64,000 nt of DNA, from the NCBI GenBank assembly GCA_017449975.1, contig JAFSYK010000091.1, positions 1 through 64,000 of the forward strand, read 5' to 3'. This DNA is from Bacteroidales bacterium (GTDB taxonomy: Bacteria; Bacteroidota; Bacteroidia; Bacteroidales; P3). The notes below the pieces were generated by a model, which had not been told where the DNA came from, did no database searches, and was given only the letters and a program-made list of their open reading frames with translations. This document shows, piece after piece, positions 7,551 through 64,000 of the stretch (positions are counted from its first letter, which is position 1; each line of letters opens with the position of its first letter). The position numbers and the translations under genes are program-made.

Positions 7551-7564
7551 GATTCTATTCTTCT

Positions 7565-9997
<2,433 letters not shown>

Positions 9998-38497: not shown

Positions 38498-38538
38498 AAA
38501 CTAAAAACTAAAAAGAAAAAGCTAAAAAGTAAAAACTA

Positions 38539-38702
38539 AGAAGCTGTTTAAATTTGATTGATGAGTTTTATTATGGACATGGGCGAGCAGGTTTTTTGCC
38601 TTTCCGATGGAACAATGGGGTTCCATTGTGACTGAGGAAAGGTGAAAAAGATGCCGTTCAGGTACTTTAAGAAAAACATTGAATTAAATTTAAACAGCTT
38701 CT
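38539..38702. mobile_element. 164-bp MITE-like element
   Basis: Perfect 17-bp terminal inverted repeats (AGAAGCTGTTTAAATTT at 38539-38555 and its inverse at 38686-38702). If the ends are taken as GAAGCTG...CAGCTTC, TAA occurs on both sides as a possible target duplication. The interior has no gene but an inner hairpin, TTTCCGATGGAAC...GTTCCATTG...GAGGAAA. AT-rich ends with a GC-richer core. Preceded by AAAAACTAAAAAGT simple repeat (38490-38538). Confidence 0.8.
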
Positions 38703-38723
38703 AAAAGTAAAGAATACGAATAT

Positions 38724-39215
38724 ATGCCAGAATTCTCAACTCTCAATACTCAGTCCGCAATTAAAAAAATACAACGCCGAGCCAATATCGGCCTCTACGG
38801 GTCGCTGATTATCGGTGTCGCCACTTTGCTATTCCATCAGTTCTGCCACTATCGGTTTTATGTCAACGACTACGGCCATCGGCTGATGCTCATTGGCGGC
38901 AGCGTATTGACGGTACTCGTCGTTGCCACCATCCTGCTCACCGTGCGACGCAGCCTGCCACAGATACGACAGCTCGACAGCGTCGAAGAACGGCTGAAAC
39001 GATACACCGACCTCGTCGCCAACCTCTACAACAGCACGCTCGCCGTGGTGTTTATCGACTGCTTGATTGTCGTCCTCGCCCACGAAAGCACCCTCTTCAT
39101 GCTACTGCTGTTGCTCGTCATGTGCCTCGTCATGCTTTATCCCAGCAGTCTGAAGATGAAGGTAGACCTTGGACTGACCGATGAACAGTTCGACCAACTC
39201 TTCCCCCATGAATAG
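38724..39215 (+). CDS. Predicted membrane protein, unknown function
   Basis: A 163-aa protein with about four membrane segments: IGLYGSLIIGVATLLFHQF, LMLIGGSVLTVLVVATILLT, LAVVFIDCLIVVLAHES and STLFMLLLLLVMCLVMLYP. The middle (VRRSLPQIRQLDSVEERLKR) is basic and probably cytosolic. No family recognised. Its N-terminus (MPEFSTLNTQSAIK) is coded by the AATTCTCAACTCTCAATACTCAG intergenic-type repeat, so the true start could be further in. It overlaps mnmE by 8 bp and is probably translationally coupled to it. Confidence 0.65.
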   Translation: MPEFSTLNTQSAIKKIQRRANIGLYGSLIIGVATLLFHQFCHYRFYVNDYGHRLMLIGGSVLTVLVVATILLTVRRSLPQIRQLDSVEERLKRYTDLVANLYNSTLAVVFIDCLIVVLAHESTLFMLLLLLVMCLVMLYPSSLKMKVDLGLTDEQFDQLFPHE

Positions 39216-42652: not shown

Positions 42653-42673
42653 ATATTTATTTTTTTCTTTTTG

Positions 42674-42681
42674 CAAAAATA
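42674..42681 (-). promoter_or_regulatory. -7 promoter box of AlbA_2 gene 1
   Basis: Minus-strand TATTTTTG, 22 bp before the start; the flanking TTTTTGCAAAAATACTCAAA is shared with the promoter of AlbA_2 gene 2. Confidence 0.45.
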
Positions 42682-46792: not shown

Positions 46793-48837
46793 TTTCTAGT
46801 GGTAACGTAGTTGATGGCTTTTGTCAGATACTCAAGGCTCTCATCCGTTTCAAATAAGCTTTTATAGTCCTTGTCTCCTCTTTCAATGATAGCAGCCAAA
46901 TATTGTGCAACAATAGCTTTCGAAACCGTACCGTCATTGATAGGTTTGAATATCTCGTATGCTATTGCGTCATTGGTGCCGTCATTGTATTTTGATTCAG
47001 CTTCCTTTTTGGCTTCTTCTACTGTCAACTCCTTTCCGACTTGTTCAGCCTTAGCCAGAACCACTGCTGTAGCCAATTCTTGATAAAGACCGCTTTGGGC
47101 TATCTCATATTCAAGCGTCCAGTGTTTTGCTGCATATAGTTTTATGTCTCCTTCTGGATAAAAGGCAGACAATTTATTGGTCTTCACCAGCCTTTCGTGT
47201 GCTATAGCCTCTGCTGAAATTGCAATCGCTTTTTCGTCAAAGATGGCGATTGCCACCTCCCTTTCTTCCTTCTTGATACCTTTACCCCTAACGCCCGCCT
47301 TTTTATGAGGAGACAGATAGTCATTAAGTTCTGCCTTTGTCCTTATATAGTTTGGTAGTTCTGCGAAATCAACCGAAGGGCATTTCTCTGCAAGCTCGCT
47401 CTTAACGTCTTCTGTGCAGTGAAGGATTTTCTTGATTCTTTTCTCGTCAGGGTCATCTTGATAGTACTCTATACTTCTCACATCAAGGTCTGTAACTATC
47501 GCCACAGGTATCCCCATCTGCTGTCCATCTGTCCTTTGGAATATCTTTGCATATCGTTTATATGCCGTACTTCCCACGTTCACAATTGAAACGCCATACT
47601 CATGCAAAGGTTTACCCAATACTCTTGCCACGGCTGGCAGCAGTAGGTTTTCTGCATCACCTTCCACCATCAGCACACCTCTCGCAAAGAAGAGGTTAGC
47701 CTTAGTGGCATCCAGAAAACGATGCAGGAAGTTGTAGTCTCCATCTGTACTTTGCGTGTATGCCCTCCCCATCGGAAACACTTTGTCTTCTTTCAATACA
47801 ATAAGGTTCTCCAAAGGGATGTTTGCAGCAAGTGTGATACTATGTGTCGTAAGGACAAACTGACCAAAGTCTTCTTGGCTTCTTATGTAGTCCAACAGCC
47901 TAAGCTGGTATTGAGGATGCAGGTGAGCCTCCAACTCTTCAATCAAAGTCAGTTTCAAACCTTGTTTTTCTTCAAGGAACAATAGGAGTTCCGCAGCCAC
48001 ACAGAGCAAGTTCAATGAACCGAGACCACTTTTGTTGTTCTCCAGAATCAAGTCCAGTTGGCGAAGTATGTCTATCAGCTCACTCCCAGTTAAGGACAGC
48101 TGTGCCTCACGGCTTTCACCCGCCATCAAGAAGTTCTTCACCAATATATCATTGATGTTCTTCGTGATGACTTTCCCATCTTCTTCCTGCTTCAAGTCAA
48201 AGTATTTATCGATCTCCGCTTTTAAATCTGCATATAGTTTTTCTAATTTGTGTCTTCCCTCTTCATCTCTTTTACTATCTCCAAAAATACTATGGGCCTG
48301 AAGGATCTGGGCGATTCTCGACTTATGTCCATGCGTCATGTCTTGGAGGGCATCACGAAGCGGCTTAAGATACACCACCCGAAGCAAATCCCTAGCTTTC
48401 CCGTCCATAGGTGTCCCTTCATTGCCCATACCTGCTTTCACCACGGGGTAAATACGACCGTCTTCAAGCATTGTTGCATTAAGCGTCATTCGCAGACAAT
48501 ATGCTACTCCCTTGTCATTTTTTGTTAGCCCAATCCATTCCAGAAAAGGAGCCGCTTCCGTCTCATTTATACCCTCAAAAATGCACTCAATCTTCAAACT
48601 TTTGACACGCATCTTCTTGTTGTCCATATAGAAGTCTTTCTCATCCATATAGATAGGTTCACCGCTTTTGGTGCGGAGAACATAGCGAATAGCATCCACA
48701 ATGGCGGTCTTACCAGAGTCATTTTCTCCAATAAGAATATTCACGCCTTCATGAAAACGCACTTCCAATCCCGGCTTTCCGTCAAGACCTTCTCCGTATT
48801 TTCGAAAATTCCAAATCTTTAGGGTGGACAAATACAT
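46789..48837 (-). CDS. OLD-family ATPase/TOPRIM nuclease (Gabija GajA-like)
   Basis: A 682-aa overcoming-lysogenization-defect protein. N-terminal ABC-like ATPase: LKIWNFRKYGEGLDG, Walker A VNILIGENDSGKTAIVDAI (34-50), signature-like LSLTGSELIDIL, Walker B LTLIEELEAHLHPQYQ (~300) and the H-loop FVLTTHSITLAANI. The C-terminal TOPRIM nuclease has GVLMVEGDAENLLLPAVA (~390, metal Glu) and PVAIVTDLDVRSIEYY. Such proteins act as DNA nickases or nucleases in phage defence. Its 4-bp overlap with a UvrD-type gene is the Gabija arrangement, and it follows the BREX-like genes after only 33 bp plus a small hypothetical. Confidence 0.87.
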   Translation of the reverse strand: MYLSTLKIWNFRKYGEGLDGKPGLEVRFHEGVNILIGENDSGKTAIVDAIRYVLRTKSGEPIYMDEKDFYMDNKKMRVKSLKIECIFEGINETEAAPFLEWIGLTKNDKGVAYCLRMTLNATMLEDGRIYPVVKAGMGNEGTPMDGKARDLLRVVYLKPLRDALQDMTHGHKSRIAQILQAHSIFGDSKRDEEGRHKLEKLYADLKAEIDKYFDLKQEEDGKVITKNINDILVKNFLMAGESREAQLSLTGSELIDILRQLDLILENNKSGLGSLNLLCVAAELLLFLEEKQGLKLTLIEELEAHLHPQYQLRLLDYIRSQEDFGQFVLTTHSITLAANIPLENLIVLKEDKVFPMGRAYTQSTDGDYNFLHRFLDATKANLFFARGVLMVEGDAENLLLPAVARVLGKPLHEYGVSIVNVGSTAYKRYAKIFQRTDGQQMGIPVAIVTDLDVRSIEYYQDDPDEKRIKKILHCTEDVKSELAEKCPSVDFAELPNYIRTKAELNDYLSPHKKAGVRGKGIKKEEREVAIAIFDEKAIAISAEAIAHERLVKTNKLSAFYPEGDIKLYAAKHWTLEYEIAQSGLYQELATAVVLAKAEQVGKELTVEEAKKEAESKYNDGTNDAIAYEIFKPINDGTVSKAIVAQYLAAIIERGDKDYKSLFETDESLEYLTKAINYVTTRK

Positions 48838-48870: not shown

Positions 48871-49287
48871 CTACTTGCTATACTTCCTTTTCATCAATTT
48901 ATCCCACTCTTCATAGAAAATTCTCTCCACTTCTTCATAGGCAAAATATCGCTCTAGTAGATTCCATTTATTTCCAGATTCATATTGACCTTCATAGCAT
49001 TCTTTCGGAAACAGAACTGGGTCTGGCTCAAGATCATCAGCTTGTGTGTCGCCAATAAGTGATTCTGATATCTGATCATGTATACCGTCATACAACCATT
49101 CCGGTTTTGGTCGCCCATCCTCCATCAAATAATCTGCAGGAATATCTTCATTATTTTCCACATTTGCTTCATAAAATTCCTTTGCCACTTTTTTAGCCGC
49201 TTCGTGAATCGAAGCAAGCAACGATTGTCTTTTTATATCTTCCAATTTGTTCTTGTTTTGTAAAACGTCTGTTTCACTTCTTGTCAT
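48871..49287 (-). CDS. Hypothetical acidic protein in the defence operon
   Basis: A 138-aa hydrophilic, acidic protein without recognisable domain. The N-terminal ~45 residues look helical (NKLEDIKRQSLLASIHEAAK). The middle has PADYLMEDGRPKPEWLYDGI and the end is aromatic and charged (RYFAYEEVERIFYEEWDKLM). Its start overlaps the desulfurase stop by 4 bp (ATGA), and the nuclease gene begins 33 bp downstream. Position suggests an accessory or coupling factor between the sulfur module and the nuclease/helicase pair; this is inference only. Confidence 0.7.
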   Translation of the reverse strand: MTRSETDVLQNKNKLEDIKRQSLLASIHEAAKKVAKEFYEANVENNEDIPADYLMEDGRPKPEWLYDGIHDQISESLIGDTQADDLEPDPVLFPKECYEGQYESGNKWNLLERYFAYEEVERIFYEEWDKLMKRKYSK

Positions 49288-50408
49288 AGTCGCTCTCCCA
49301 TTATCTTTTTTAATGCAGAAACTATTGTTTGCACTTCTTGTTCGGTATTATGATGACTTAATGTTATTCTAATTGTTCCTTTTGCATATGTCTCTTCCAA
49401 ACCAATAGCTTTTAGCACATGGGATATTTGATTTCTGGTACTATCACATGCAGAACCTGTAGAAACACTGATTCCCATAAGGTCAAGACGATGGAGAATG
49501 GCTTCACCATCATTTTTCGGAAAAGAAATACTAATATTCCCAGGGATGTGTTTTTGACAACCGTTTCGCCTAAACCGAATTCCTGAATCCTTTAAACTGA
49601 TTAGCAACAAATCTTCAAGATGACTAATATGCTTTGTGTTATTATCAAGAGATTTTACGTTCTCTTGTAGAGCGATCGCCATACCCACAATTGATGCCAC
49701 ATTTTCTGTACCTGCTCTATGGTTGGATTCTTGCGATCCGCCCAACAACAACGACGGCCATTGTGTTCCTTTCTTGATATATAAAAACCCAATTCCTTTA
49801 GGGCCATTGAACTTGTGCGCTGAAGCAGATAGCATATCAACGTCTATTTCGTGAACATCAATGGGAACATGTCCAATGGCTTGCACTGCATCGGTGTGAA
49901 AAAGCCAATTGTGTTGATGTGCAATTGAAGTCAATTCATCAATGGGTTCAATTGTCCCGATCTCGTTGTTGGCAAACATCACAGATGTAATACCGTATTT
50001 ATTATCACCCAATATGTTTTCAAGTTGCTTTGATTGAACAACACCTTCTTTGTCAACTGGTAAAAATACAACATTATCAGTCAGAGCGCATGGCTCCAAA
50101 ACGGAATGATGCTCAATTGCAGAAGTGACGATGGGCTTATCTTGTTTAATTGCTCCTTGAATGACCCAGTTATTGCTTTCTGTTCCACCTGAAGTGAAGA
50201 AGATTTCTTCTGGTAAAGCCCCTATGCATTCAGCAATTTCGGCACGAGCCTCTTTTAGTGCTTTCTTGGGATTCCTTGCAAAAGCATAAGGTTGAGAAGC
50301 ATTACCATAATCAACCATTAAATACGGCAACATGGCCTCATAAGCTTTGCTATTTAATGGGGTCGTTGCGGCATTGTCTGCATATATATGTTGTGTTATG
50401 TTACTCAT
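49284..50408 (-). CDS. Cysteine desulfurase (NifS/IscS/DndA-like)
   Basis: PLP-dependent enzyme (374 aa) that removes sulfur from cysteine as an enzyme-bound persulfide. The fold is complete: YADNAATTPLNSKAYEAM, FTSGGTESNNWVI, IEHHSVLEP, HTDAVQAIGHVPID, the PLP lysine in SASAHKFNGPKG (Lys199), ESNHRAGTENVASIVG and the active-site Cys321 in SVSTGSACDSTR. Encoded inside a defence operon, not with isc/suf genes, and overlapping both neighbours by 4 bp. By analogy with DndA or IscS in Dnd and Ssp systems it probably feeds sulfur to the PP-loop/Fe-S protein encoded upstream in the same operon. Confidence 0.92.
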   Translation of the reverse strand: MSNITQHIYADNAATTPLNSKAYEAMLPYLMVDYGNASQPYAFARNPKKALKEARAEIAECIGALPEEIFFTSGGTESNNWVIQGAIKQDKPIVTSAIEHHSVLEPCALTDNVVFLPVDKEGVVQSKQLENILGDNKYGITSVMFANNEIGTIEPIDELTSIAHQHNWLFHTDAVQAIGHVPIDVHEIDVDMLSASAHKFNGPKGIGFLYIKKGTQWPSLLLGGSQESNHRAGTENVASIVGMAIALQENVKSLDNNTKHISHLEDLLLISLKDSGIRFRRNGCQKHIPGNISISFPKNDGEAILHRLDLMGISVSTGSACDSTRNQISHVLKAIGLEETYAKGTIRITLSHHNTEQEVQTIVSALKKIMGERL

Positions 50409-50608
50409 TTAAACAATTTACATCCTTCTTCTTTAAATTCTTCTATTTTGTCAACAATATCTTGTACTGAACATCCAAGATAGTCAGCAAGACAGTCCAT
50501 GCAATAGAAGGTCTTGACATCCATGCCTAACAATTTCTTGTTAATTCCAATCGTGTCTTTGTCCAGACCTTTTTCACCACAAGCAATGCAACATACATTA
50601 TTCGCCAT
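50405..50608 (-). CDS. Small cysteine-rich protein in the defence operon
   Basis: A 67-aa protein starting MANNVCCIACGEKGLDKDTI. Two Cys pairs (CIAC and CMDC) plus CCI, a later LGC and a terminal GC make it a likely zinc or iron-sulfur binder. The second half (CLADYLGCSVQDIVDKIEEF) looks like a small helical unit. The ATG at 50608 is preferred to 50659; it overlaps the BrxL-like stop by 11 bp and the desulfurase start by 4 bp. It could be a sulfur-relay or metal-binding partner; no family is recognised. Confidence 0.72.
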   Translation of the reverse strand: MANNVCCIACGEKGLDKDTIGINKKLLGMDVKTFYCMDCLADYLGCSVQDIVDKIEEFKEEGCKLFK

Positions 50609-52028
50609 ACTCTCTAATAGTAAAAGTTGGGACATTCTTTCCTTTATACTGTAAATCAATCATACCCATCTGCTTTACAATTATTTGTCGCATTTTCTTT
50701 GCGGGGATTAGGCAATAGGTGTTGAACTCGTGCGCATTGATGTCTCTTTCCGAGCGTACATGAGGAAACAGTAACTTCAGATATGCAGTAGCTATACGTT
50801 TCACGGCCTCAGTATCGCGTGTATCAGCATTTGCAGGATATTCAACAAGTCGATCAACGATTGCTCTATAAGAAACGTCATCACGCAATAAATGCATAAT
50901 GGTCGAATAGTATTCTGAATTTAGTGCCCATCCGCATATCTTGAGACCTTCATTCATTCGAGGAATGTCCCATCCTTTGATGAAACCGTGAATACGGTCC
51001 ATCAATGCACTCGTACGGAATATGGATGGGAGACCTTCAAACATGTTTTGATATTCATCCATTTTCTCCTCATCAATATTCCCAAGCATTACAAAACCAG
51101 CATCTGCCACATCATCTTTATCTCCAATTTTCACCGTACCCTGCTCCATATACCCTTGCAAGGTCTGTGTCATTTCATTGGGATTATCAAATTCCACTTT
51201 CTGAATTTCGTCAAAAGCAATATAGTCATGGAAAAACACTAGTCCTTCTTCCCTGCGTGCCAAATCATAAAATAACTTGGCTCGGGTCATCTTGCCAGCA
51301 GAAAGATAACCATAACGACTAACACCTCCAAACAAATATGATTTTCCTGTTCCTTTGGGAGCCAATTCAATAAGGTTTAATCTTTTTTCCACGAATGGCA
51401 AAAGACGGGTTAACATGGAGAGCTTCTGATGCTCATTTTCATAACCCTCAGCATTATAATCAATTGCTCCCAAAAGAACATCTATCCATTCATGTACGGA
51501 AAATTCCTTACGAACATCCTTAAAATAGTCCAAATCAATATCGTAAGGGCAGAAATCCTGGAAGCTCAGTAATTTGATTTTACCTTTTGCCTTTCCTTCT
51601 GGATAGCGATAACCCAGTTCAACAACGCCCCATGTTTCTTTTGCTTTTACCAACTCATCCTTACATTCATCCCATACATTAGGTTCAATTATGGTTTCTC
51701 TATTAGGCAAACCAAAATCTGGGAGAGAAAAAGAAACCTCATGAGTTGTGATATTAATATCGACAGAAACACGAGTAAGTAGTTTAACACGTTCATTCTC
51801 TACAACAATGCGGTTTTTTATGGCTATCCAATCAAGTTTTGAGGGAATGTATGATTTGACAAAAGCGGACAGTTCTTCAACGTCAAACCTTCCGTCTTCG
51901 TCCTCAAACGTCTTCAATAACCAGTCACGAAGAAAAGATGGCAATTTTAAATCCTTGAAGAAATTACTCTCCTTAAGGTTTTTGAATACGACCATGTCGT
52001 CGAAATATTCTTTCAATTTTTCTTTCAT
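50598..52028 (-). CDS. brxL: BrxL-like ATPase lacking the Lon protease domain
   Basis: A 476-aa protein matching the N-terminal and AAA+ parts of BrxL (BREX Lon-like): DWLLKTFEDEDGRFDVEELS at ~35-55, VELGYRYPEGKAKGKIKLL, then the Walker A IELAPKGTGKSYLFGG (~220-234), FFHDYIAFDEIQKVEF (Walker B) and GFVMLGNIDEEKMDEY. Typical BrxL proteins of other BREX types are ~670-690 aa and add a Lon-like S16 domain; here the protein ends soon after the ATPase at TFTIREYGE. Short forms may be normal for type 4 BREX. Sits between pglZ and the sulfur genes. Confidence 0.85.
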   Translation of the reverse strand: MKEKLKEYFDDMVVFKNLKESNFFKDLKLPSFLRDWLLKTFEDEDGRFDVEELSAFVKSYIPSKLDWIAIKNRIVVENERVKLLTRVSVDINITTHEVSFSLPDFGLPNRETIIEPNVWDECKDELVKAKETWGVVELGYRYPEGKAKGKIKLLSFQDFCPYDIDLDYFKDVRKEFSVHEWIDVLLGAIDYNAEGYENEHQKLSMLTRLLPFVEKRLNLIELAPKGTGKSYLFGGVSRYGYLSAGKMTRAKLFYDLARREEGLVFFHDYIAFDEIQKVEFDNPNEMTQTLQGYMEQGTVKIGDKDDVADAGFVMLGNIDEEKMDEYQNMFEGLPSIFRTSALMDRIHGFIKGWDIPRMNEGLKICGWALNSEYYSTIMHLLRDDVSYRAIVDRLVEYPANADTRDTEAVKRIATAYLKLLFPHVRSERDINAHEFNTYCLIPAKKMRQIIVKQMGMIDLQYKGKNVPTFTIREYGE

Positions 52029-52040
52029 ACATGTAATAAT

Positions 52041-54320
52041 TTAAAAGAATTTACGCTCTGAAGCTCCTTCCTTTTTTACCTCAAACATGAGATTTTTGGC
52101 TATTATCATATCATTAAGCAATACATCAAAATAATATACTCCTGCATTTTTAATATCAGGCATTTCTATTGTGTAATTGTATGGTGTTTCCGTAATAGTT
52201 GCACGATAGTTTTTATTGTTAACTATTATAGAAAGATTGTCTGATTGGCTGTCAACAAATAAGTTGAGCAACGCTTTCTTTTTAAAGCTTACGATGACGG
52301 GCTTCGTATCAGATACTTTACACACCCATTTTGTTTGTTGCTTACGAATTCTTATTATTGGAACAGTTACCTCTTCTATGGAAGCTCCTCCATGCACTTC
52401 CACTATAGACGCTCTTCCCCCCTTGAACCTATCATAATTGGCCAGACACCAGAAATCGTTCTCCTCGGTTGCAAATTCCGGTTTTTCATTTAGGTCTGTT
52501 TTAGGGCAACAACGACCTGAATGTTTTCCCTTTTCTGCAACTTCCCACTTGTTTACCTTCTCATAAATTACGGCAAGTCTTGAAGAACCATGATCTGCAA
52601 TTATATAGGCAGTTTGGTTATTGTTTATCGTTTTAAGTTGAGACAACAAATTGTTGATAATATTCAACTCCTCAACGATATGAATAGGAAGTTTGTTGTT
52701 TTCGTAGTTGTAAGTACTGTTACCCTCATGTTTCAGTGTATCCAAATCCCTGTTTTCGTATACCCTACATCCGTTCTTTTTAAAATCAGGAATAAATTCC
52801 TTATTTATGCATGTAATTGATGGTAGTTCACAGAGGGCCACATCCGAATGGAATTCGAATCCCAAATCATAACACTTATTTTGTATATAACCCAGATATT
52901 CTGCACCCATTGCGTCCATAAAGTATAGTACAGACAGTTCCTTATCTTTTGGAATATTATCAACATAAGAGGTACGTGGATGAAGCCATGTGTTATATTT
53001 TCTCCGTGTTGCTTGTTCCTCAACCATTACTAATTGTTCTGGAAGAATGGTGTTGGTAACCTTACACCACTTGTAGATTTGAAAATAGCGATTCAGATAG
53101 TCATTTTTGAAATCATAAGGTTTGAGATATGTGGCCAAATCCGGATAAGTTAATTCGAGAATAAACAACAATTCTGTTCGCGAATATTCAGCAGCATACT
53201 TATCCAATAGCTCTATTGTCATTTCTTTTTCCTGATTGGATATGTCGGTTAGGTAAAAAAACGACTCCTTCCCTTTAGAGTAAACCTGTTTGCAGAACAA
53301 ACTGATTTCATCTGTTTGACCTACCATTTGAGACACAACAATCTTTCTTTGCTGATAAATAGTATTAAACGCAATGTCTTTCGGTGAATACTCTAAAATA
53401 TCACAAAAAGAATTATTAATGAATTCAGTATAGGTTTTGGATCTGGATACTACTTTTGAAAGATAATCATTTCCACTCACTCCATAAACTCGTAATGCAA
53501 TAAAATACAACCATTTTTTAAAAGCATCATAAGTGGAAAAGCCATATATGGCATTAACTAAAGAATGTGTGCCTCCGAATGATTGATTGACATAATCACC
53601 AAACGTCTCATACTTTTCCAATTCATAGTGTAACCTTCTCCATTGGTCATTCGTACCGGATATTGAACCAATGTTATCCAGTTCTCTAAATGAACTTGCC
53701 AATGTTTGGTAGTCCGATGAATATTCAGCAATGCAGTATAGCGAATTAGGGAAATCAGCTTTCCGCTTTTCTGTCAAGACAGGGATGTCTTTCTGCCCTG
53801 TTTCCCAAAGAGCTGTAATTTGACTTAAATCGCCTAATCCGTTTATGTGTACTTCCGGTTGTGCTATATGTTTTGACCAAAAATACAAGGAGGGGAGTTC
53901 TTCGGGGTGTCCACCCTCGACAATGATTTTGGACGAATCCATAAGCCTTTTATCAAAGTCTGACAAAAAGCGTTCACAACCAGTAGTAAGTATTACAAGT
54001 TTGCCCTTCACCTGCATATCAAGAAGAGAACGTAACTCTTGTTTTAACTTTTCATCACCATATAGGAAGAGATAATAAAACAATCCATCAAGGAACACAA
54101 CACCATCGTGTTGGGACAAAGTGTTTTTTAGTTTGTCCATCAATGGCATTCCGTCATCTTCACAAAAACGTTTGGCTTTTATAACAATATTGCTTCCAAT
54201 ACTATAGTGCAGTATAATTTGCTTCATCGCACAAACAGTAGGAACATCGACTATTATAGGGCGATGCTTATCTGAATGCAGATACTTATCAATTTTGTTT
54301 ATAACATCCTCGTGAGTCAT
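52041..54320 (-). CDS. pglZ: PglZ-domain protein of a BREX system
   Basis: A 759-aa alkaline-phosphatase-superfamily protein. The PglZ domain occupies about residues 450-680: SVLYFMDAMGAEYLGYIQ (first metal Asp, ~469), ALCELPSITCINKEF, and YIIADHGSSRLAVIY (second metal site, ~577). The N-terminal part has a REC-like or ATPase-like look (RPIIVDVPTVCAMKQII). A C-terminal beta domain (IVNNKNYRATITETPYNYTI) follows. PglZ is the hallmark of BREX; it may hydrolyse a phosphodiester or nucleotide signal. The ATG at 54320 (MTHEDVINKIDKYL) leaves 16 bp after brxC and is preferred over 54368. Confidence 0.88.
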   Translation of the reverse strand: MTHEDVINKIDKYLHSDKHRPIIVDVPTVCAMKQIILHYSIGSNIVIKAKRFCEDDGMPLMDKLKNTLSQHDGVVFLDGLFYYLFLYGDEKLKQELRSLLDMQVKGKLVILTTGCERFLSDFDKRLMDSSKIIVEGGHPEELPSLYFWSKHIAQPEVHINGLGDLSQITALWETGQKDIPVLTEKRKADFPNSLYCIAEYSSDYQTLASSFRELDNIGSISGTNDQWRRLHYELEKYETFGDYVNQSFGGTHSLVNAIYGFSTYDAFKKWLYFIALRVYGVSGNDYLSKVVSRSKTYTEFINNSFCDILEYSPKDIAFNTIYQQRKIVVSQMVGQTDEISLFCKQVYSKGKESFFYLTDISNQEKEMTIELLDKYAAEYSRTELLFILELTYPDLATYLKPYDFKNDYLNRYFQIYKWCKVTNTILPEQLVMVEEQATRRKYNTWLHPRTSYVDNIPKDKELSVLYFMDAMGAEYLGYIQNKCYDLGFEFHSDVALCELPSITCINKEFIPDFKKNGCRVYENRDLDTLKHEGNSTYNYENNKLPIHIVEELNIINNLLSQLKTINNNQTAYIIADHGSSRLAVIYEKVNKWEVAEKGKHSGRCCPKTDLNEKPEFATEENDFWCLANYDRFKGGRASIVEVHGGASIEEVTVPIIRIRKQQTKWVCKVSDTKPVIVSFKKKALLNLFVDSQSDNLSIIVNNKNYRATITETPYNYTIEMPDIKNAGVYYFDVLLNDMIIAKNLMFEVKKEGASERKFF

Positions 54321-54336
54321 ATGCCAGTTACTAATA

Positions 54337-57300
54337 CTAATTGTTCTTGATAATCTGAATGCCAACACTCATGTTATTCTTGATGAGGTCTTTCAGATAT
54401 TTTTTCACAGATTCAGCATCCATGTTATCTATCTTCTTCATAGCCTCTTCATAACCTTTAGTGATATATTTTGATTGGGCATATTCTCTTATGAGTTTCA
54501 TTACTTCAGCATTACCCATCCAATGATAAGGGGCATCTGAGACATGATTGATGAGATATTTCTGAACTTCTTCCACATCGCCAATCATAACAGCATTGTC
54601 GCCAAGCATCTTTTGACAGAATGCTTTCTTACGAGTTTTTTCATCGTTCAACTCTCCCCAATGGTCAAATGTCTCCAAATATAGTAGTGCCTTTTCAATA
54701 TCTTTGTCTGTTGGATTTTGGTTGTTTAAGACACCAAATACGGGTCTACATTCAGGCCATTCCTTATCAGGTATCATCAGTTGGATGGGCATCATATATT
54801 GCCCACTCCATTGCAATGGCGATTCTGTACCTGTTTGTTCTTTCCACAATGACTTTAATTTGGTAGAACCAAGTGCTTTTTTGTGTTCTGCCACAAGGCT
54901 TTCTACTTTTTGTTTATATGTGACAGTATCCATCGTGAAGCAGCCGCTTTGCATCTTTGCGAATATCTTCTCTTTATCGCTGTCACTCAAATCTTGTAAT
55001 TCGAATGAACAGGCTTGTTCGAAAACTGCAAACTGATCTGTATAGAAAGCATTGAAGTGTGCACCATAACCTTGTAGTATATCTAAGAAAGCCTGCTTTT
55101 TGTTCTCTGCCAAAGCGCCATTTTGTTTTATTTCCTTCAGTTTGGAAAGGAGAGGCTGAATATCTGGGACGAATTGCTTAATAGCCTCGTATGCCACCTT
55201 CATGTTTCCACATTTTTCATTCCATAAAGCGATGGCATCTCTATATTGTGTACAACTTCCCAACAAGTTAAATGTCTCCACAGTTATTTCATACTCCAAA
55301 ATAACTGCATCAATCTGTTGATCCACTGTTTGAGATTTCCAAACCCAATTAGCGTCTCCTGCATCTATCTTATGACGTAGCTCGTTGATGTATTGTCCTC
55401 CATCGCCTACTTGCTTGGCAAGGCGAGGCAACTTCCCATCACAATATTCTTCCAGATACTTTAACATACCCTTCCGACAGTTCTCCTCTGTCAAGAGACT
55501 CTTTAGATCTGACGCGGCATTTTTGTTGGCAATATAGATTTTGCCAATTTCATTTGCTATGTCGGTATCAGTTTTGTTATCAGAGATGTTATTCGTCAGT
55601 TCCATATAATTACCAAGAAGAGTGCGAATCACATCTGTCGGTGTTTGCATAACTTCTCCATCCAATATGTATGTTATTGTCCATATTGGGAATGACAAAC
55701 CATCCTTCATCTTCATACCAAGCCTTGTTCTTACACTCTCTATAGAAGAACAATACTCCTTTGAGATTCCAAATGAAGTAGAAGTTCCTTCCATGAATGA
55801 CTTTTCCTCAGGTGTCATAGTAACAAGGTATTTGGGACGATAGCGATTGATGGGGGTGACGTCATTCTTGATTATCTCCTCCACCATCTCTTTCATACGG
55901 GTTGAATTCATACTATCACTGGTAATGTCATCACTCCATGAGTATTTGTCATTGACATACTCCTTTAGTAGAAATCCAATAAAGAATGCGGTCATGTTGC
56001 AAGGAAGGAAACCGTAAGGCTTTTCTTTAAGAAAGTCATAGATAGCACCAACAGCTATTCGTCCATGTTCCTTCAGCTCCTTACCAATGAAATCATCCAG
56101 TTGAACTTTTATTCGCGATATGGGATCTGAAGGATGCATTTCCCAGTACTTCTCAACATTCCATGCATTGGAGAGGGATATACTTAATTTTGCATTGTTA
56201 TTGTTGTACGTTCCTTTTTCGGTTTGTGTGATGCCACATTCAACGCCAACTTGCAAGCTATTCGCAATCCACCAGTTATTTATTGATTTGTAATTACACT
56301 CCAGAGCAAGTGGGTATCTCTTTCTGTCAATATTACGAAACTCTTCTTTCAGTATTTCTATGCTATTTACATTATCTCCAAGGGGGGTATTACTTGTATA
56401 GAGTACAAACTGACCTTCCTTAATACGAAGCCTCCAATTTGTCAATTCATCTTTTGCATATCTACTATATTGGACAGCCTCGTTGTTGTCCTTGCCTGTA
56501 TAATATGCTGATGTGGCCATATTTTCCACCCATTTCAGAAAGGACTCTTTGCCCAAAGGTGTTTTCCCACAGTCAACGAACACGGCTTTACTTTCTGGGT
56601 ACTCATCTATGACAGCCCGAATCTTTTTTGTCAGAGCGATGCTCTCGCTGACATCTTTCGATAATCCCACAACAACGTATATGTGCCGCTCGTCATCAGC
56701 AGCATCATTTATTGCCTTCTTTGCCAGTTGGTCAAAATCCGTTACTCCTGCAAACAACAACTTATAGCGCATCTTCAAATCGTGAGGCAATTCTATTGAT
56801 TCGTTTAGCTCTCCATCACGTATAAGAGTGCTTGTTGTTCTGTTTTCGAATTCTGCTTTTTTCTTCTCAATTTGATCGGTGTCCAGTTCGCCCGTCAATA
56901 CAGAATAGAGCGATGTTCCATCCTTTAGATTTTTCTTATAGATAATTTTATCTCGTATTAGCTTTTCAGCACACTTCACAGCCTGTCCCTGATCTAGGCT
57001 TGACCCCTCAAAGGCATAGTTCAAGTTCTGTTCGTTTGGAAGAAAAATTTCAACGGTATCGCCCGATTGCTGAGAGATGGCTTGAAACAACAGGATGGTT
57101 TTTAGCACTTTTTGCTCATCTGAATCCAAATGTTTTGAAAGACTTGGGTAGCGATCCAGAATCTGCCTGATGCTTTGTGACAAATCGTCTCTTCCTGTTT
57201 CATAAAAGAAGCCCCACAGGAGATCTATGGTTAGAAATGGATTCTCGTCATAGAAACCGAAATTATCAATGTACCATTGGAATCCCTTTTGATCTTCATT

Positions 57301-58515
57301 GCCGTTATTTTTAATGAAGTCAAACATACTTCTCTGGTTTGATGCGAAAGACGCAGATATATGTTTGAGCAAACAAGCTGCATAAGGGTGGATGGGCAGG
57401 ATTCCTCGCAAATGCTTGTCATCGATACCAGCATGTTTTTTGATGCGTGTCCTCGAATCGTTAGTGCGTTCTTCCAAATCTGGCAATATGTCATTCTCCC
57501 ATTCGCCACGAATCATCCCATCTCCTTTTTTGCGCATAGCAGCTCCCATCAATTGAAATGCCATGTTTTCAGGCAGATCAATGATGCACGTAGGTTTAAT
57601 GAAACGGTCAAGAATCTTCTTCTTGTCGCTGTCTGCATCATCAAGACCAGCTTCACTACGGTGCGTCACTGGAATAAAACAAAATGGTTGTGTCTGGCTC
57701 AATTGTAACACATGTTGGAATCCAGTCAGGCGATGAGCATTGTTGCTGAAATATTCAGTGAATTCATCCCAAATAAAAACAATGGCTTTCAATTTGTTAG
57801 CCTCTATTACTTCAGTTATCCACTGACACATCGCAGCATCATCTAATATGAATGCCTTAATATTCTTCTCGTTCGCCACCTTGAAAATTTTGTTCATCAG
57901 TGTCTGCAAAGCTTGGTCTGTGTATTCTCCAAGATGCTTTATGATGTCATCAACATTTTCATTACCAAAGGATTCTTTATAGCTTCCTTTGACATAGACT
58001 TCGAAACTTTGCTTGTTTTCGTTGTCCGACAAGTATCTTACAATTCCATCCTTCATGGCATTTGGACCAGCATTTTCTATCCCAGCATCTTTCAAGGCCT
58101 TCTCGATGCTCTCTTGCATAGCGAGGAATAGATCATTATCGCTATGTATGGACGAAGAACCATAGCGGTGTGCGGTAATTATCTTCCCTTGAGATTTTGC
58201 AGCAACAAATTTGTTGCACAAATCTTGGTCAATACTGAACTGAGTGAAATAATCACGGGTCTCCTGCTCAGATGCATCCAGCAGGTGTTTCAAAGTTAGT
58301 ACGGCATGACTTTTGCCTGTACCGTAGGCTCCTTCCACCCAGATGTTCAACTTTTGTTTGCGTTCCAGTACATTGACTGTATTTCTGAGCAATTTGATGA
58401 AGGTCTCGTGTGGAAAGAATTTCTTCCACAAGTCAGGCTCCTTTTTTATCACATCACTATCGACCGCTGGAAAGAAGTCGGGGTCTATGTCGAAATATTT
58501 GCGATATGTATCCAT
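54337..58515 (-). CDS. brxC: BrxC-like giant ATPase of a BREX system
   Basis: A 1392-aa P-loop protein matching BrxC/PglY. N-terminal YFDIDPDFFPAVDSDVI and Walker A NIWVEGAYGTGKSHAVL (57-73), then the Walker-B-like KAIVFIWDEFTEYFSN near residue 240. The long C-terminal part is helical with few clear motifs (KKAFCQKMLGDNAVMIGDVE). BrxC ATPases oligomerise and act in host modification and phage exclusion. The gene lies 20 bp after brxP and 16 bp before pglZ, the core order of type 4 BREX. Confidence 0.86.
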   Translation of the reverse strand: MDTYRKYFDIDPDFFPAVDSDVIKKEPDLWKKFFPHETFIKLLRNTVNVLERKQKLNIWVEGAYGTGKSHAVLTLKHLLDASEQETRDYFTQFSIDQDLCNKFVAAKSQGKIITAHRYGSSSIHSDNDLFLAMQESIEKALKDAGIENAGPNAMKDGIVRYLSDNENKQSFEVYVKGSYKESFGNENVDDIIKHLGEYTDQALQTLMNKIFKVANEKNIKAFILDDAAMCQWITEVIEANKLKAIVFIWDEFTEYFSNNAHRLTGFQHVLQLSQTQPFCFIPVTHRSEAGLDDADSDKKKILDRFIKPTCIIDLPENMAFQLMGAAMRKKGDGMIRGEWENDILPDLEERTNDSRTRIKKHAGIDDKHLRGILPIHPYAACLLKHISASFASNQRSMFDFIKNNGNEDQKGFQWYIDNFGFYDENPFLTIDLLWGFFYETGRDDLSQSIRQILDRYPSLSKHLDSDEQKVLKTILLFQAISQQSGDTVEIFLPNEQNLNYAFEGSSLDQGQAVKCAEKLIRDKIIYKKNLKDGTSLYSVLTGELDTDQIEKKKAEFENRTTSTLIRDGELNESIELPHDLKMRYKLLFAGVTDFDQLAKKAINDAADDERHIYVVVGLSKDVSESIALTKKIRAVIDEYPESKAVFVDCGKTPLGKESFLKWVENMATSAYYTGKDNNEAVQYSRYAKDELTNWRLRIKEGQFVLYTSNTPLGDNVNSIEILKEEFRNIDRKRYPLALECNYKSINNWWIANSLQVGVECGITQTEKGTYNNNNAKLSISLSNAWNVEKYWEMHPSDPISRIKVQLDDFIGKELKEHGRIAVGAIYDFLKEKPYGFLPCNMTAFFIGFLLKEYVNDKYSWSDDITSDSMNSTRMKEMVEEIIKNDVTPINRYRPKYLVTMTPEEKSFMEGTSTSFGISKEYCSSIESVRTRLGMKMKDGLSFPIWTITYILDGEVMQTPTDVIRTLLGNYMELTNNISDNKTDTDIANEIGKIYIANKNAASDLKSLLTEENCRKGMLKYLEEYCDGKLPRLAKQVGDGGQYINELRHKIDAGDANWVWKSQTVDQQIDAVILEYEITVETFNLLGSCTQYRDAIALWNEKCGNMKVAYEAIKQFVPDIQPLLSKLKEIKQNGALAENKKQAFLDILQGYGAHFNAFYTDQFAVFEQACSFELQDLSDSDKEKIFAKMQSGCFTMDTVTYKQKVESLVAEHKKALGSTKLKSLWKEQTGTESPLQWSGQYMMPIQLMIPDKEWPECRPVFGVLNNQNPTDKDIEKALLYLETFDHWGELNDEKTRKKAFCQKMLGDNAVMIGDVEEVQKYLINHVSDAPYHWMGNAEVMKLIREYAQSKYITKGYEEAMKKIDNMDAESVKKYLKDLIKNNMSVGIQIIKNN

Positions 58516-58535
58516 TTCACTAATGATTTATGCAA

Positions 58536-60887
58536 TTAGAACAAGTCAAGAACATCTTTTGAAGTCTTTGACTCTTTAAGATTGATGTTGTCCAAATCGT
58601 GGGTAAATGTGGTAGATATAAAATCAGGGTGATTCATGCTGAGTCCGTTCAATATTTTTATTAGTTCATCTCTCTCTATGCCAAAGATGCGATAAGGTCC
58701 CACACCGTCACTTTCTATATGCTCATCATATAATCGCGAAACAGTGAATTGATAGTAGCCGTCACATGCTTCCGCGAACTTGTAGAGACTATAGAGAATG
58801 ACTCTGGAGTCAGGACTGTTCCAAGAAGTACGAATGAATCTTGTTCCCCCATCTTCCTTGGTTGATTTCTCTGCGAAGCCAAATCCCACATGCTGCAACG
58901 GTAATGCTGCGATACGTTTAAGGGCAGCCGGTATTGACTTCTGTGCACTTGGACTAACACCTTCTGTTGTACTAAGCTTATTAACGATAGAGCTTTGTCC
59001 GAAAATGTCATTGATATTGAAATTGTGGACATACCATCCGACTTCTGGAGTGTACACAAGATTTACCATCATTATCGCCCACACTAACTCATCTTCGAGA
59101 TTGCTCTTCCGAAGCCATTTTCCCAAAGAAGTCTCCGTGTCACCGTCAATAATGCCAGCATCACGAAGGAATCTATTAAAATTAGGTATTTGTTTGTTAC
59201 CTAGCGTGTTCTCAGATTTAAATCTGTCACTTAATTCAATCCACTGTTTGAACCACTCAATTTTCGGGCCATGAGCGTCATAACAATCAATGGATCTAGT
59301 TTTGTTATTCTTCATATTGCCTAAACCTTTTGATAATCTTAATGAATTATAAACATAGCATCCAGCATCAACATCCAAGCATTGACCACATTTGATGCAA
59401 CTATCTGATATTGACAAAGAACCTTTTTCATCAAAATGCAAGTTTCCGTACTTACAATTAGCCATACACACCCTACATCCTATACAGTAATGGCTTTTTC
59501 TACAGATTATTCTAATCTTCTTTATGAACAAAGAATCCGTCGGTGAACTTCCATTTAAAGTTTGTAGTTTCATGCGTCCTTCAGACAGTTTTGTTAATAA
59601 AATCATATAGCTTCCGCCACCACATTCAATGATATACTTATCCTTTGTATCTGAAGAGACAACATTCCCTATTGTTTTCAACCACTGATGCCATTGATCA
59701 TGATAATCATTGAAAGTTATTTCTAAATTATCACCACATATTGATTCATCGTAGTCTTTGGGAGCAATAGATAGATCACGGCCACTTTTTCTTGCTTTCC
59801 AACCATTGTTCTCAATGTAACTTTTCATACGCACATCATCTCCCTTTTCAGAAATGTTAAGAGTTTGAATGACATCAAGCAATGCATTTGTTTGCTCATG
59901 ATAACATACATTATTGAGGAAGTCGTTTCTGTTTGTTGACATTGGACAAACCAAACACCCCGCACGCGTATTTCCTCGTTTGTAGGCCTCATTCAAATGC
60001 AATTTATTGGCGAAAATATACATGTATACTTCTGCTGAGTTCCAGGAGAGTATGGGATAGTAACTGTATTGTCCACGATGTTTCTTCCCATATGCAATAG
60101 TGTCATAACCACTTCTTCTTACACTCTCATCCGCTCTTACTCCAACAAATGCCATTTCTGTTACAGAATGTTTGCCTACGATATCGTTGATAAGAAGAAG
60201 TTGAGGCGTCGTTTTGTGAACACTACAACACCAGCGAACTGTTGCTGTCGGTGGGCCAAATAACCTCCATGATTCAGATGGCTTTAAATGGGATTTTGCC
60301 ACATAGAAACGGATATTATCCGCCTCACACTTCTGCTTGGCCAATTCTACAGAAGAATAAGTATCTGGGAATTCCATGCCTGTATCACCAAATATTACCA
60401 CAAAAGCATTGTGTGGTAGTGCGCGTTGAACTATATCCAACGTCACTTCACTGTCTTTACCACCGCTATACGATACATGAAAAATATCCACTTTGTTCTT
60501 GAATTTCATGTAGGTGTTGTAGGCATTTTTGACGGTATCAGCCACAAGGCTATCCATAATGTCCTTGTTGTGCAAGACCATTGCGTCAATGTCAACTGGA
60601 TGCAATTTACGTCCAGTTGGTTCAGGGTCCTCAATTATCTCTATGGTCGGTGCTGTGAAAAAGCCACCGCCTTTTACTGTTGCAACATGCCGCCCTCGAT
60701 AGTAATAATTATTGGCTTCAGCCCACATAAATGGCGCATCGGTTTTACTGTCGTATTTCCAATACTTGTCAAATCCAAGGATGTCTAGTTCCTTGCTATA
60801 TACCGGCCTTGGCTCCTTGCTGAAATGCAGGGGCGAATTGTTGAGTAGCAAGCCTCCAGTTTTGTCATCCCAAGTATATGAGTACAT
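58536..60887 (-). CDS. brxP: BrxP-like PAPS-reductase-family PP-loop protein with 2[4Fe-4S] ferredoxin module
   Basis: A 783-aa protein. Residues ~130-345 form a PAPS-reductase/DndC-like PP-loop domain: HVSYSGGKDSEVTLDIV (SGGKDS at 141-146), FGDTGMEFPDTY, RWCCSVHKTTP (Cys220/221), YPILSWNSAEVYMYI and AGCLVCPMS (Cys311, Cys314), likely Fe-S ligands as in DndC. Residues ~462-512 add a ferredoxin-like module (CIGCRVCMANC and CIKCGQC). A C-terminal ~250-residue domain has no clear match. In Dnd systems DndC activates DNA for sulfur insertion. BrxP is the signature of type 4 BREX; with the desulfurase in the same operon, DNA phosphorothioation is the favoured role. Confidence 0.87.
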   Translation of the reverse strand: MYSYTWDDKTGGLLLNNSPLHFSKEPRPVYSKELDILGFDKYWKYDSKTDAPFMWAEANNYYYRGRHVATVKGGGFFTAPTIEIIEDPEPTGRKLHPVDIDAMVLHNKDIMDSLVADTVKNAYNTYMKFKNKVDIFHVSYSGGKDSEVTLDIVQRALPHNAFVVIFGDTGMEFPDTYSSVELAKQKCEADNIRFYVAKSHLKPSESWRLFGPPTATVRWCCSVHKTTPQLLLINDIVGKHSVTEMAFVGVRADESVRRSGYDTIAYGKKHRGQYSYYPILSWNSAEVYMYIFANKLHLNEAYKRGNTRAGCLVCPMSTNRNDFLNNVCYHEQTNALLDVIQTLNISEKGDDVRMKSYIENNGWKARKSGRDLSIAPKDYDESICGDNLEITFNDYHDQWHQWLKTIGNVVSSDTKDKYIIECGGGSYMILLTKLSEGRMKLQTLNGSSPTDSLFIKKIRIICRKSHYCIGCRVCMANCKYGNLHFDEKGSLSISDSCIKCGQCLDVDAGCYVYNSLRLSKGLGNMKNNKTRSIDCYDAHGPKIEWFKQWIELSDRFKSENTLGNKQIPNFNRFLRDAGIIDGDTETSLGKWLRKSNLEDELVWAIMMVNLVYTPEVGWYVHNFNINDIFGQSSIVNKLSTTEGVSPSAQKSIPAALKRIAALPLQHVGFGFAEKSTKEDGGTRFIRTSWNSPDSRVILYSLYKFAEACDGYYQFTVSRLYDEHIESDGVGPYRIFGIERDELIKILNGLSMNHPDFISTTFTHDLDNINLKESKTSKDVLDLF

Positions 60888-60888
60888 A

Positions 60889-62775
60889 TTATTTCAATTT
60901 ATTTTTATTAGATTCATCTATGGCTCTCGCTTTTGCAAGAACTTGTTCAATTTGTGAATAACGTCGTTGCACAATATAACCATCTCTTGCTAGAAAATCA
61001 AGAGCCTTTTCCTTAACAAGGGGTATGTGTTCACGAATTAATGCAAAGCTGAGAATGGTATCAAATGGTTTTTGTGACGAATTGATATCAGACAATTCTT
61101 TCATGTTGCTTCTGACCACAACTCCACAAACATTGTTCTTGTTCAAACAATCTCCACGCAGTAGTTTGAATCGATTACTTGATGTCAACAAGAAACTTTC
61201 TAACAGTCGCTGCGTCCAAGGGAATTCACCTTCCGGAAATGTTACAAAATCAGAAATGCTTTTCAAAGGAATGAATGGCTGTGATTCGGTACACCATAAA
61301 CCTATCGCATAATCTATAGCATCAACATCATAATGCACTTTTGATTTTCTTATAAACATATCATGATTAATCCGAACACTGTATTCTAACAATGTTTCCA
61401 GGTGATAGTTAAGCACTGTACCTAAACTCTCGGCAAGGGCATCTACCTCAGCAAGAGTATATGTTTCATGAAGCTTTGCAAAAGATAGCAATGCGTCTTT
61501 AGCAGAAAGATTGTTGCCATACTTGCTGACAATAGCATTGTTGAATGAGTATCTGCCTTCAAGTTTACAAGATAAAGCTTTGCGAATACCATAATCCGAC
61601 AACGCACCGTTATTCTTTATCAATGATGGAACTTCCTTACGAATATCATCAAACAATTCATTGTGCCCGATGAACTCATATTGTTCTATCGATCTGTCAA
61701 TTATCCTTGACACAGCATCCAATTCGTCATTAGTTGCAATAAACAGGTCTATGTGGAAACGCTGATTGCGTCCTGAGGAAACAAGCTCTACCGGATGAGA
61801 GTTGAAACATCTGTGAACATCATCTGCAGGCAGGTATTCCAATGCTTCTACTGTTTCATCTTCTGTCACTACACATCCTTGACTTTTCACAAATTCCAGA
61901 ACCTCTGCATCAATATCTGGTTCCACATTGCGAGAACATGTCATATAATCTTTGAAGAAAAACCACCTGTCGCCATAGTAGAAACTGACGTATGAACGAA
62001 GCATCCCTTCATTGACAATAATACTGTCAAGCAATTCATTCTCAAAATGATGAAACAATGTCTTGTAATATAGATATCCCCTCCTTGTATTAAAGGTTTC
62101 TTCAATGAAGGAGACGATGTCTCGTTTAACATCATTCGACAAGATACGTTCAGGAACAAATAATTTACTATCTGAAATTATGCCACACGCGTTAATGTCG
62201 TTAGTCAAACAATCATCGGATTTTTGATATTCTCTCCCGGTATAATCTAGATAAAAGTGACGAAAACGCTTTAGTTCAATGGATGACTCTATGCGAAATC
62301 CTTTTGCAAAACGTTGACTTAATATTTCCTTTATCTGTCCTAAAGTGTAATCATCGCTAATTTCTGCTTCTCGCACGAAATCAAAGATCAGTTTTTGTTG
62401 GGGTTCGTACACAACATGTGTAACAGGTTCGGGATATAGTTTTAGAGCTTCTTCAAGAAGTGATTTAAAAGAAACTCTGTCTTCCATAGCCAGATAAGCT
62501 ATGTCAACAAACATCTTACTGGGATTTTCAAACCCTTTCTCACCATGTGTCATACAATACTCTATCGCAGACATTTGCATTGCTATACCGTTTTCATTCC
62601 GGTACTTGTCACTAACTTCAATCCCATTTAACAACATACGATTACGAAGACGATCGGACAATCTTTTTATTGCATCCTTTCGACTCTCCTCACCTGATGC
62701 AACCCTTTCGTATGCATCAATCAGTAAGGCTGTCTCATATTTATTCCATCCTATGCGTATAAATGGAGAACCCAT
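60889..62775 (-). CDS. Unknown 628-aa protein heading the BREX operon
   Basis: No family recognised with confidence. The N-terminus (GWNKYETALLIDAYERVASG, then RLSDRLRNRMLLNGIEVSDK, IAMQMSAIEYCM) looks like a Myb/SANT-like DNA-binding unit of the sort seen at the start of defence proteins. The middle is rich in charged helices and short aromatic strands. The C-terminal ~90 residues (FKLLRGDCLNKNNVCGVVVR, LVKEKALDFLARDGYIVQRR) may form a winged helix. It is 1 bp upstream of brxP and 24 bp downstream of the XRE regulator, so it is co-expressed with the core. It could supply DNA recognition for a system without a visible methylase. Confidence 0.75.
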   Translation of the reverse strand: MGSPFIRIGWNKYETALLIDAYERVASGEESRKDAIKRLSDRLRNRMLLNGIEVSDKYRNENGIAMQMSAIEYCMTHGEKGFENPSKMFVDIAYLAMEDRVSFKSLLEEALKLYPEPVTHVVYEPQQKLIFDFVREAEISDDYTLGQIKEILSQRFAKGFRIESSIELKRFRHFYLDYTGREYQKSDDCLTNDINACGIISDSKLFVPERILSNDVKRDIVSFIEETFNTRRGYLYYKTLFHHFENELLDSIIVNEGMLRSYVSFYYGDRWFFFKDYMTCSRNVEPDIDAEVLEFVKSQGCVVTEDETVEALEYLPADDVHRCFNSHPVELVSSGRNQRFHIDLFIATNDELDAVSRIIDRSIEQYEFIGHNELFDDIRKEVPSLIKNNGALSDYGIRKALSCKLEGRYSFNNAIVSKYGNNLSAKDALLSFAKLHETYTLAEVDALAESLGTVLNYHLETLLEYSVRINHDMFIRKSKVHYDVDAIDYAIGLWCTESQPFIPLKSISDFVTFPEGEFPWTQRLLESFLLTSSNRFKLLRGDCLNKNNVCGVVVRSNMKELSDINSSQKPFDTILSFALIREHIPLVKEKALDFLARDGYIVQRRYSQIEQVLAKARAIDESNKNKLK

Positions 62776-62799
62776 AATTATTTCCTAAGTTGTCCTTGC

Positions 62800-63003
62800 C
62801 TATTTTTCAATTCTTACTAATTCACTTAATTCCACTTCCAGCAACTTCGCAACCTTGATGAAAGTCTCCATCGGTGGCTGACAGGCGTTGGTACACCACT
62901 TGGACACGGTGGTCGGTGCACAGCCTAATTGTTCTGCCAGCCACTTGTTGGTACGCTTCTTCTCAGCTAAAACCACTTTGATTCGATTAATGTCTTTATC
63001 CAT
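62800..63003 (-). CDS. XRE-family HTH regulator of the BREX operon
   Basis: A 67-aa single-HTH protein: DINRIKVVLAEKKRTNKWLA, EQLGCAPTTVSKWCTNACQP, then PPMETFIKVAKLLEVELSEL. The HTH spans residues ~16-45. It is the first gene of the minus-strand operon, 24 bp before the 628-aa gene, with a -7 box 26 bp upstream. Small XRE proteins in this place commonly repress their own operon; that function is inferred. Confidence 0.85.
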   Translation of the reverse strand: MDKDINRIKVVLAEKKRTNKWLAEQLGCAPTTVSKWCTNACQPPMETFIKVAKLLEVELSELVRIEK

Positions 63004-63531: not shown

Positions 63532-63539
63532 TATCTTTG
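63532..63539 (+). promoter_or_regulatory. -7 promoter box of the right-edge ATPase
   Basis: TATCTTTG, 24 bp before the ATG at 63564. Confidence 0.6.
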
Positions 63540-63563
63540 AAAACGGATTACACTACAAATGAT

Positions 63564-64000
63564 ATGGATAAACTGATTGGTAGAGAACAGGAAATCAGAC
63601 TACTGAAGGAATACACCTCTTCAGAAAGGCCGGAGTTTGTGGCCATATATGGCAGAAGACGCGTCGGAAAAACGTTCCTCGTCAACCAATTGTTTGGCAG
63701 GAAGCTGTCTTTTTCGATGACAGGTGTCCTCGATGGCACCAAGGATGAGCAGATGGAGGCTTTCGTAGATGCCATGCAGGAATATAGCGGCGAGCTGGTT
63801 GAAAAGCCAAAGACATGGATGGAGGCTTTCCGTGTGCTGAAAGCGTTCTTGAAGAAAAAGGCAGAACTGAAGCAACGATGCATCGTGTTTCTCGACGAAC
63901 TGCCTTCGATGGACACGCAGCGTTCAGGATTTGTCCGGGCACTGGGGTATTTCTGGAACAGTTGGGCCTCGCTGCAGGACAACTTGACGCTGATTGTATG
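63564..64000 (+). CDS. DUF234-type AAA ATPase, 3' end off the right edge
   Basis: The first ~145 codons of an ATP-binding protein of the prokaryotic STAND-like ATPase_2/DUF234 family. It opens MDKLIGREQEIRLLKEYTSS, then Walker A AIYGRRRVGKTFLVNQLFG and Walker B CIVFLDELPSMDT. Full members are ~450-520 aa with a C-terminal DUF234/PD-(D/E)xK-like part, which is not visible. Members are frequent, scattered accessory genes in Bacteroidota of unclear role. GC content rises again here compared with the BREX genes, so it may mark the far side of the island or a separate insertion. Confidence 0.85.
   Translation, partial: MDKLIGREQEIRLLKEYTSSERPEFVAIYGRRRVGKTFLVNQLFGRKLSFSMTGVLDGTKDEQMEAFVDAMQEYSGELVEKPKTWMEAFRVLKAFLKKKAELKQRCIVFLDELPSMDTQRSGFVRALGYFWNSWASLQDNLTLIV

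Follow-up and report, generated by a model that had tools for sequence, protein, structure and literature searches.

A type 4 BREX operon with its own cysteine desulfurase, predicted to mark DNA with sulfur, in a Bacteroidales bacterium

The operon and its proteins

Contig JAFSYK010000091.1 of a Bacteroidales bacterium (assembly GCA_017449975.1) carries a type 4 bacteriophage exclusion (BREX) operon on the minus strand of its first 64,000 nucleotides (nt), the stretch analyzed here and called the window. The operon encodes the four core proteins BrxP (58,536-60,887), the ATPase BrxC (54,337-58,515), a phosphatase/nuclease-like PglZ of BREX-4 type (52,041-54,368) and BrxL (50,598-52,028). These are followed by a 67-amino-acid (aa) protein with a CxxC...CxxC pattern and a conserved C-terminal GCxLF tail (50,405-50,608, ATG at 50,608) and by an intact 374-aa cysteine desulfurase of the IscS/NifS/DndA/SspA type (49,284-50,408), the last two genes overlapping through ATGA. 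The locus is a predicted phage-defence operon and very probably marks its own DNA with sulfur.

A sequence-only reading of the window had named these genes at this place, and library matches confirm the core. PADLOC matches to the four core proteins were near full-length: BrxP scored 796 bits (E 7.8e-240, residues 1-782), BrxC 2.1e-256 (with SspC at 5.7e-14), PglZ 6.9e-86 and BrxL 1.2e-208. PglZ also matched the NCBIfam model BREX_PglZ_4 (NF033445; 451 bits, cut-off 140), and BrxL matched TIGR02688 (395.7 bits, cut-off 329.3) and the Pfam families BrxL_ATPase and BrxL_N. No methyltransferase model of PADLOC, Pfam or NCBIfam matched any of the nine operon proteins scanned, as the earlier reading had held for the operon. 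With BrxP, a type 4 PglZ, BrxC, BrxL and a DUF4007 module (see below), and no methyltransferase matched, the operon belongs to type 4 BREX.

Two further genes precede brxP. The first encodes a 67-aa helix-turn-helix (HTH) protein of Cro/CI type (62,800-63,003; Pfam HTH_26, 33.2 bits), probably the operon regulator, which has a relative in only one of the 86 loci compared (L047). The second, U628 (60,889-62,775), adjoins brxP and encodes a 628-aa protein that matched no family in the libraries scanned and is predicted to form an array of winged helices with a variable middle part. From the HTH gene to the desulfurase, neighbouring genes are separated by at most 24 bp or overlap by up to 32 bp, which bears out the tight spacing first described. 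The genes then listed do not make up the whole operon: it also takes in the HTH gene and U628 upstream of brxP, and downstream the run continues to a 138-aa gene, gajA and gajB with no wide gap, so that co-directional genes are unbroken from 63,003 down to 44,762. A single promoter for the whole operon, also claimed, cannot be shown; promoter-like matches numbered 59 against 53.9 expected in shuffles.

BrxP combines several modules. Its PAPS-reductase domain (Pfam, 95 bits) contains a PP-loop of sequence SGGKDS and is followed by a ferredoxin-like stretch of eight cysteines with weak Fer4 matches and matches to ferredoxin-type Protein Data Bank chains. Both the PP-loop and the extra cluster module had been noticed from the sequence, and the eight-cysteine module is kept across aligned rows. 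In alignment, the CC at residues 220-221 and the CxxC at 311-314 fall on the equivalent cysteines of the APS reductase 2goy, which bind a [4Fe-4S] cluster in that enzyme. These cysteines and the ferredoxin-like ones are conserved in 86 or 87 of the 87 rows. The CC...CxxC set had been called DndC-like; it aligns instead with the quartet of an APS reductase and is not a hallmark of DndC. We dropped the label because the available text of a 2026 account of type 4 BREX (PMC12839542) states that the type 4 PAPS reductase is without the cysteine dyad unique to DndC. A comparison by hhalign with 19 proteins of the DUF4007 family identifies the C-terminal 250 or so residues of BrxP as homologous to that family (probability 94.7%, E 5.8e-8, 230 columns). 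Two control regions of BrxP, its PAPS domain and its N-terminus, scored 0.2% and 0.1%; the Pfam DUF4007 model itself gave no match reaching BrxP. The same account reads the DUF4007-type module of type 4 BREX as SspB-like (PMC12839542).

Conservation of the locus

A scan of genome contigs, queried with three aligned BrxP proteins, found 201 relatives, and the best 80 were compared. Among the closest operons is that of the cultured Leyella stercorea An906 (L045), whose BrxP is 70% identical. Genes of the window were placed at these loci by tblastn, and counts are limited to loci with enough DNA on the side concerned (with room). By record titles, the hosts include Bacillota, Bacteroidota, Spirochaetota, Planctomycetota, Synergistota, Alphaproteobacteria, sulfate reducers, an archaeal metagenome-assembled genome and others, and the gene order is conserved across hosts of many phyla. 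The 67-aa CxxC gene follows brxL in all 65 loci with room. For the desulfurase, 54 of 62 loci have it downstream of brxL, on the same strand and starting 199-340 nt past the end of the brxL match. U628 is the immediate upstream neighbour of brxP in 73 of 75 loci. The exceptions are L117 and L106, which has its U628 match at a greater distance upstream. Of the 73 loci counted, 70 have a U628 match that ends 6-43 nt before the brxP match. In the five loci on viral contigs, the counts are 5/5 for the small gene, 4/5 for the desulfurase and 4/5 for U628. Divergence of both U628 and PglZ correlates with that of BrxP (r 0.63 each). Gene content, order and conservation across loci were established directly, as were the domain assignments and the intact key residues.

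The desulfurase was not found after brxL at eight loci (L070, L077, L098, L099, L103, L111, L114 and L116), nor does any of the open frames listed downstream of brxL encode one at these eight loci or at L043, L109 and L122. Whole-genome searches of five carriers (L070, L077, L098, L099 and L114) found other genes of the aminotransferase-V/desulfurase family above 280 bits in each. This fits replacement by a housekeeping enzyme, and housekeeping desulfurases are described as able to stand in (PMC12839542, available text).

Two side observations were made among the surveyed sequences. The brxP of Pseudoramibacter alactolyticus (L094, 10,001-12,319) carries an in-frame stop codon. In three genomes of the phylum (L129, L130 and L131), a divergent PglZ-4-like protein adjoins a BrxL of 48-49% identity, and these pairs perhaps represent another branch of type 4 BREX.

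Probable sulfur marking and the proteins around it

With high confidence, we read the locus as a type 4 BREX operon with its own desulfurase, in which BrxP would insert phosphorothioate and unmarked DNA would be blocked. The proposal that the mark is phosphorothioate in place of methylation, and that the operon brings its own desulfurase, was made in the sequence-only reading and is supported both by the survey and by the literature. The gene family brxPCZL (BREX type 4) is listed as one of three known to make phosphorothioates, with Yuan et al. cited (PMC11931770, in the portion available); the journal version of that work is Nat Commun 2026;17:1717, as referenced in the accessible part of PMC13326643. 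In the available text of PMC12839542, type 4 BREX is classed as a phosphorothioation system; the desulfurase, present in 255 of 457 type 4 taxa, is put forward as a potential sixth core component, and a small zinc-finger protein is described as its frequent companion. The idea of a sulfur-marking BREX with a desulfurase partner is therefore already published and not new.

The desulfurase itself is intact, as had been noted. It matched Pfam Aminotran_5 (251 bits) and the PADLOC SspA/DndA models (397 bits; SspA 1.8e-119, DndA 3.3e-119). Residues K199 and C321, presumably the pyridoxal phosphate lysine and the catalytic cysteine, are conserved in 60 of 60 rows.

The enzymatic steps of the mechanism proposed here draw on what is known of the protein families and on the papers cited, and this copy is presumed to be active. 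The desulfurase would take sulfur from cysteine and pass it to BrxP, possibly via the 67-aa CxxC protein. BrxP, with its ATP site in the PP-loop and its iron-sulfur clusters, would then insert the sulfur into the backbone of host DNA as phosphorothioate. The sites may be chosen by the DUF4007 module of BrxP together with BrxC, with a possible contribution of the winged-helix protein U628. DNA without the mark would be blocked by BrxC, PglZ and BrxL.

Several observations weigh against this reading. The survey covers the best 80 of 201 BrxP relatives and is hence biased to close kin, and at the BREX-4 locus on a plasmid of Methanosphaera sp. ISO3-F5, whose BrxP is 30% identical, the desulfurase, the small gene and U628 were undetected. 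The desulfurase falls below the curated NCBIfam cut-offs for NifS and DndA. It also tracks the divergence of BrxP least (r 0.26, against 0.45-0.63 for the other genes compared), and 8 of 62 loci lack it, which indicates that it is helpful rather than required.

The role of the 67-aa CxxC protein is evenly balanced between two explanations. It may be a transcription regulator of zinc-finger or HTH type rather than a sulfur carrier, and the small protein of type 4 BREX has indeed been suggested to be a zinc finger similar to HTH regulators (PMC12839542, available text). Its place inside the operon at every locus with room fits this less well, and so does the behaviour of its cysteines. C7, C10, C36 and C39 are invariant in 49 of 49 aligned rows, as are G62, C63 and F66, and across a larger set of 71 rows the fourth cysteine differs in a single row and the fifth in no row. 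The distance of this last cysteine from the C-terminus is 3 or 4 residues in all 50 proteins of this type measured, and in the predicted structure (mean predicted local distance difference test, pLDDT, 85.5) the cysteine stands beyond the final helix. A zinc site of four cysteines combined with a cysteine near the C-terminus would be in keeping with a sulfur carrier, and the conserved C-terminal cysteine offers a direct handle on the sulfur route to the DNA-modifying enzyme.

For U628, we propose a DNA-reading or sensing subunit. It is possible, if on balance doubtful, that U628 is only an operon-specific transcription regulator that controls expression together with the first HTH gene. It is the first large gene of the operon and is predicted to consist of winged helices, and members of its family include one of 50 with a sigma-70 region 4 and one of 50 with an RNA polymerase alpha C-terminal domain. 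A working subunit is the better fit to open frames of the family that reach 1,449 aa, to a correlation with BrxP equal to that of PglZ and to the tight spacing before brxP. As a tentative extension, U628 might be a core subunit of a large clade of type 4 BREX and the 67-aa protein might relay sulfur from the desulfurase on to BrxP, so that seven genes would form one sulfur-marking machine. Within such a machine, U628 would consist of a fixed body of about 480 aa with exchangeable DNA-binding modules ahead of it, and would choose or sense the sites of BrxP in the manner of a specificity subunit. Should U628 prove to define the target site or to detect phage, the way in which type 4 BREX locates its sites would be easier to explain. 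A large gene present in 73 of 75 surveyed relatives and unmentioned in the available texts on type 4 BREX, including PMC12839542, is of potential interest, and other papers may describe it. In a different setting, another genome of the same genus (L171) has a solitary 112-aa frame (7,339-7,677, minus strand) that carries the U628 start domain at 43% identity and lies on the margin of a different cluster of long frames, all in one direction.

It is also conceivable, but in our view unlikely, that the desulfurase mainly builds the iron-sulfur clusters of BrxP rather than donating sulfur to DNA. The demand would be unusual: BrxP has 12 conserved cluster-type cysteines, in the APS-reductase-type quartet and two ferredoxin-like clusters. 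To judge by the title of You et al. 2007, DndA can reportedly assemble DndC as an iron-sulfur protein, which we count in favor of cluster building. Both roles are compatible, however, and the desulfurase is described as a sulfur donor in phosphorothioation systems (PMC12839542, available text). That the desulfurase is a loosely attached neighbour with no role in BREX is very improbable: its absence from eight loci and its low correlation with BrxP point that way, but the explanation of a chance neighbour fails because a same-strand desulfurase follows brxL in 54 of 62 loci of many phyla, and the published count of 255 among 457 type 4 taxa (PMC12839542, available text) agrees.

Genomic surroundings and known systems

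Downstream of the BREX operon, the 138-aa gene (48,871-49,287, minus strand) overlaps the desulfurase stop by 4 bp and joins the desulfurase to a complete Gabija system on the same strand. The 138-aa protein has no family match. GajA (OLD/TOPRIM; 46,789-48,837, PADLOC 3e-213) and GajB (UvrD-like helicase; 44,762-46,792, PADLOC 3e-186) lie side by side with an overlap of 4 bp. Neither GajA nor the 138-aa gene has a relative in the 86 BREX loci compared, GajB has one weak match (L081), and the 138-aa gene is not part of type 4 BREX. Two adjacent Schlafen AlbA_2/HATPase_c_4 proteins follow (41,129-42,676 and 42,867-44,495, minus strand), and with them the defence island measures about 22 kb. According to the available text of PMC12839542, backup effectors near BREX include OLD-ABC (Gabija, PARIS) and Schlafen genes, a pattern that the neighbours here fit. 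In front of the operon, a divergent ATPase_2/AAA protein (63,537-63,998, plus strand) is cut by the window end.

The island is preceded by a uvrA-like gene, u163 and mnmE (35,639-40,569, plus strand). Six genomes of the same genus all have u163 next to mnmE, and five of them also have uvrA beside the pair. The DNA after mnmE differs among these genomes, and the island genes tested were not found in the stretches compared; the island therefore looks accessory, and mnmE may mark a variable insertion site. Among 395 genomes of the class, a full-length BrxP match occurs only in the genome that carries the operon.

The Dnd system (DndABCDE) shares with this operon a DndA-like desulfurase and a related PP-loop enzyme (TIGR03183, DndC, 36 bits against a cut-off of 290). 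It differs in that the PP-loop enzyme of type 4 is without the DndC dyad (PMC12839542, available text), and models of DndB, DndD and DndE matched none of the nine operon proteins, DndD and DndE not having been searched for in the rest of the genome. The Ssp system (SspABCD) has these parts in common with the operon: a desulfurase (SspA), a DUF4007/SspB-like module, an SspC-related BrxC and an SspD-related PAPS-reductase-like protein. Models of SspE and SspFGH matched none of the nine proteins, the rest of the genome not having been searched. The operon differs from Ssp in the presence of PglZ and BrxL and in BrxP being a fusion with an extra cluster module, a module that a subset of SspD also has (PMC12839542, available text).

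Published type 4 BREX is essentially the same system. The account in PMC12839542, in its available text, shares with this operon the four core genes, a DUF4007 fused to BrxP, the ferredoxin-type module, the desulfurase, the small CxxC protein and the lack of a matched methyltransferase; the conserved U628 goes unmentioned there. The locus is mainly of value as a clean example of this BREX type in which all the parts are intact.
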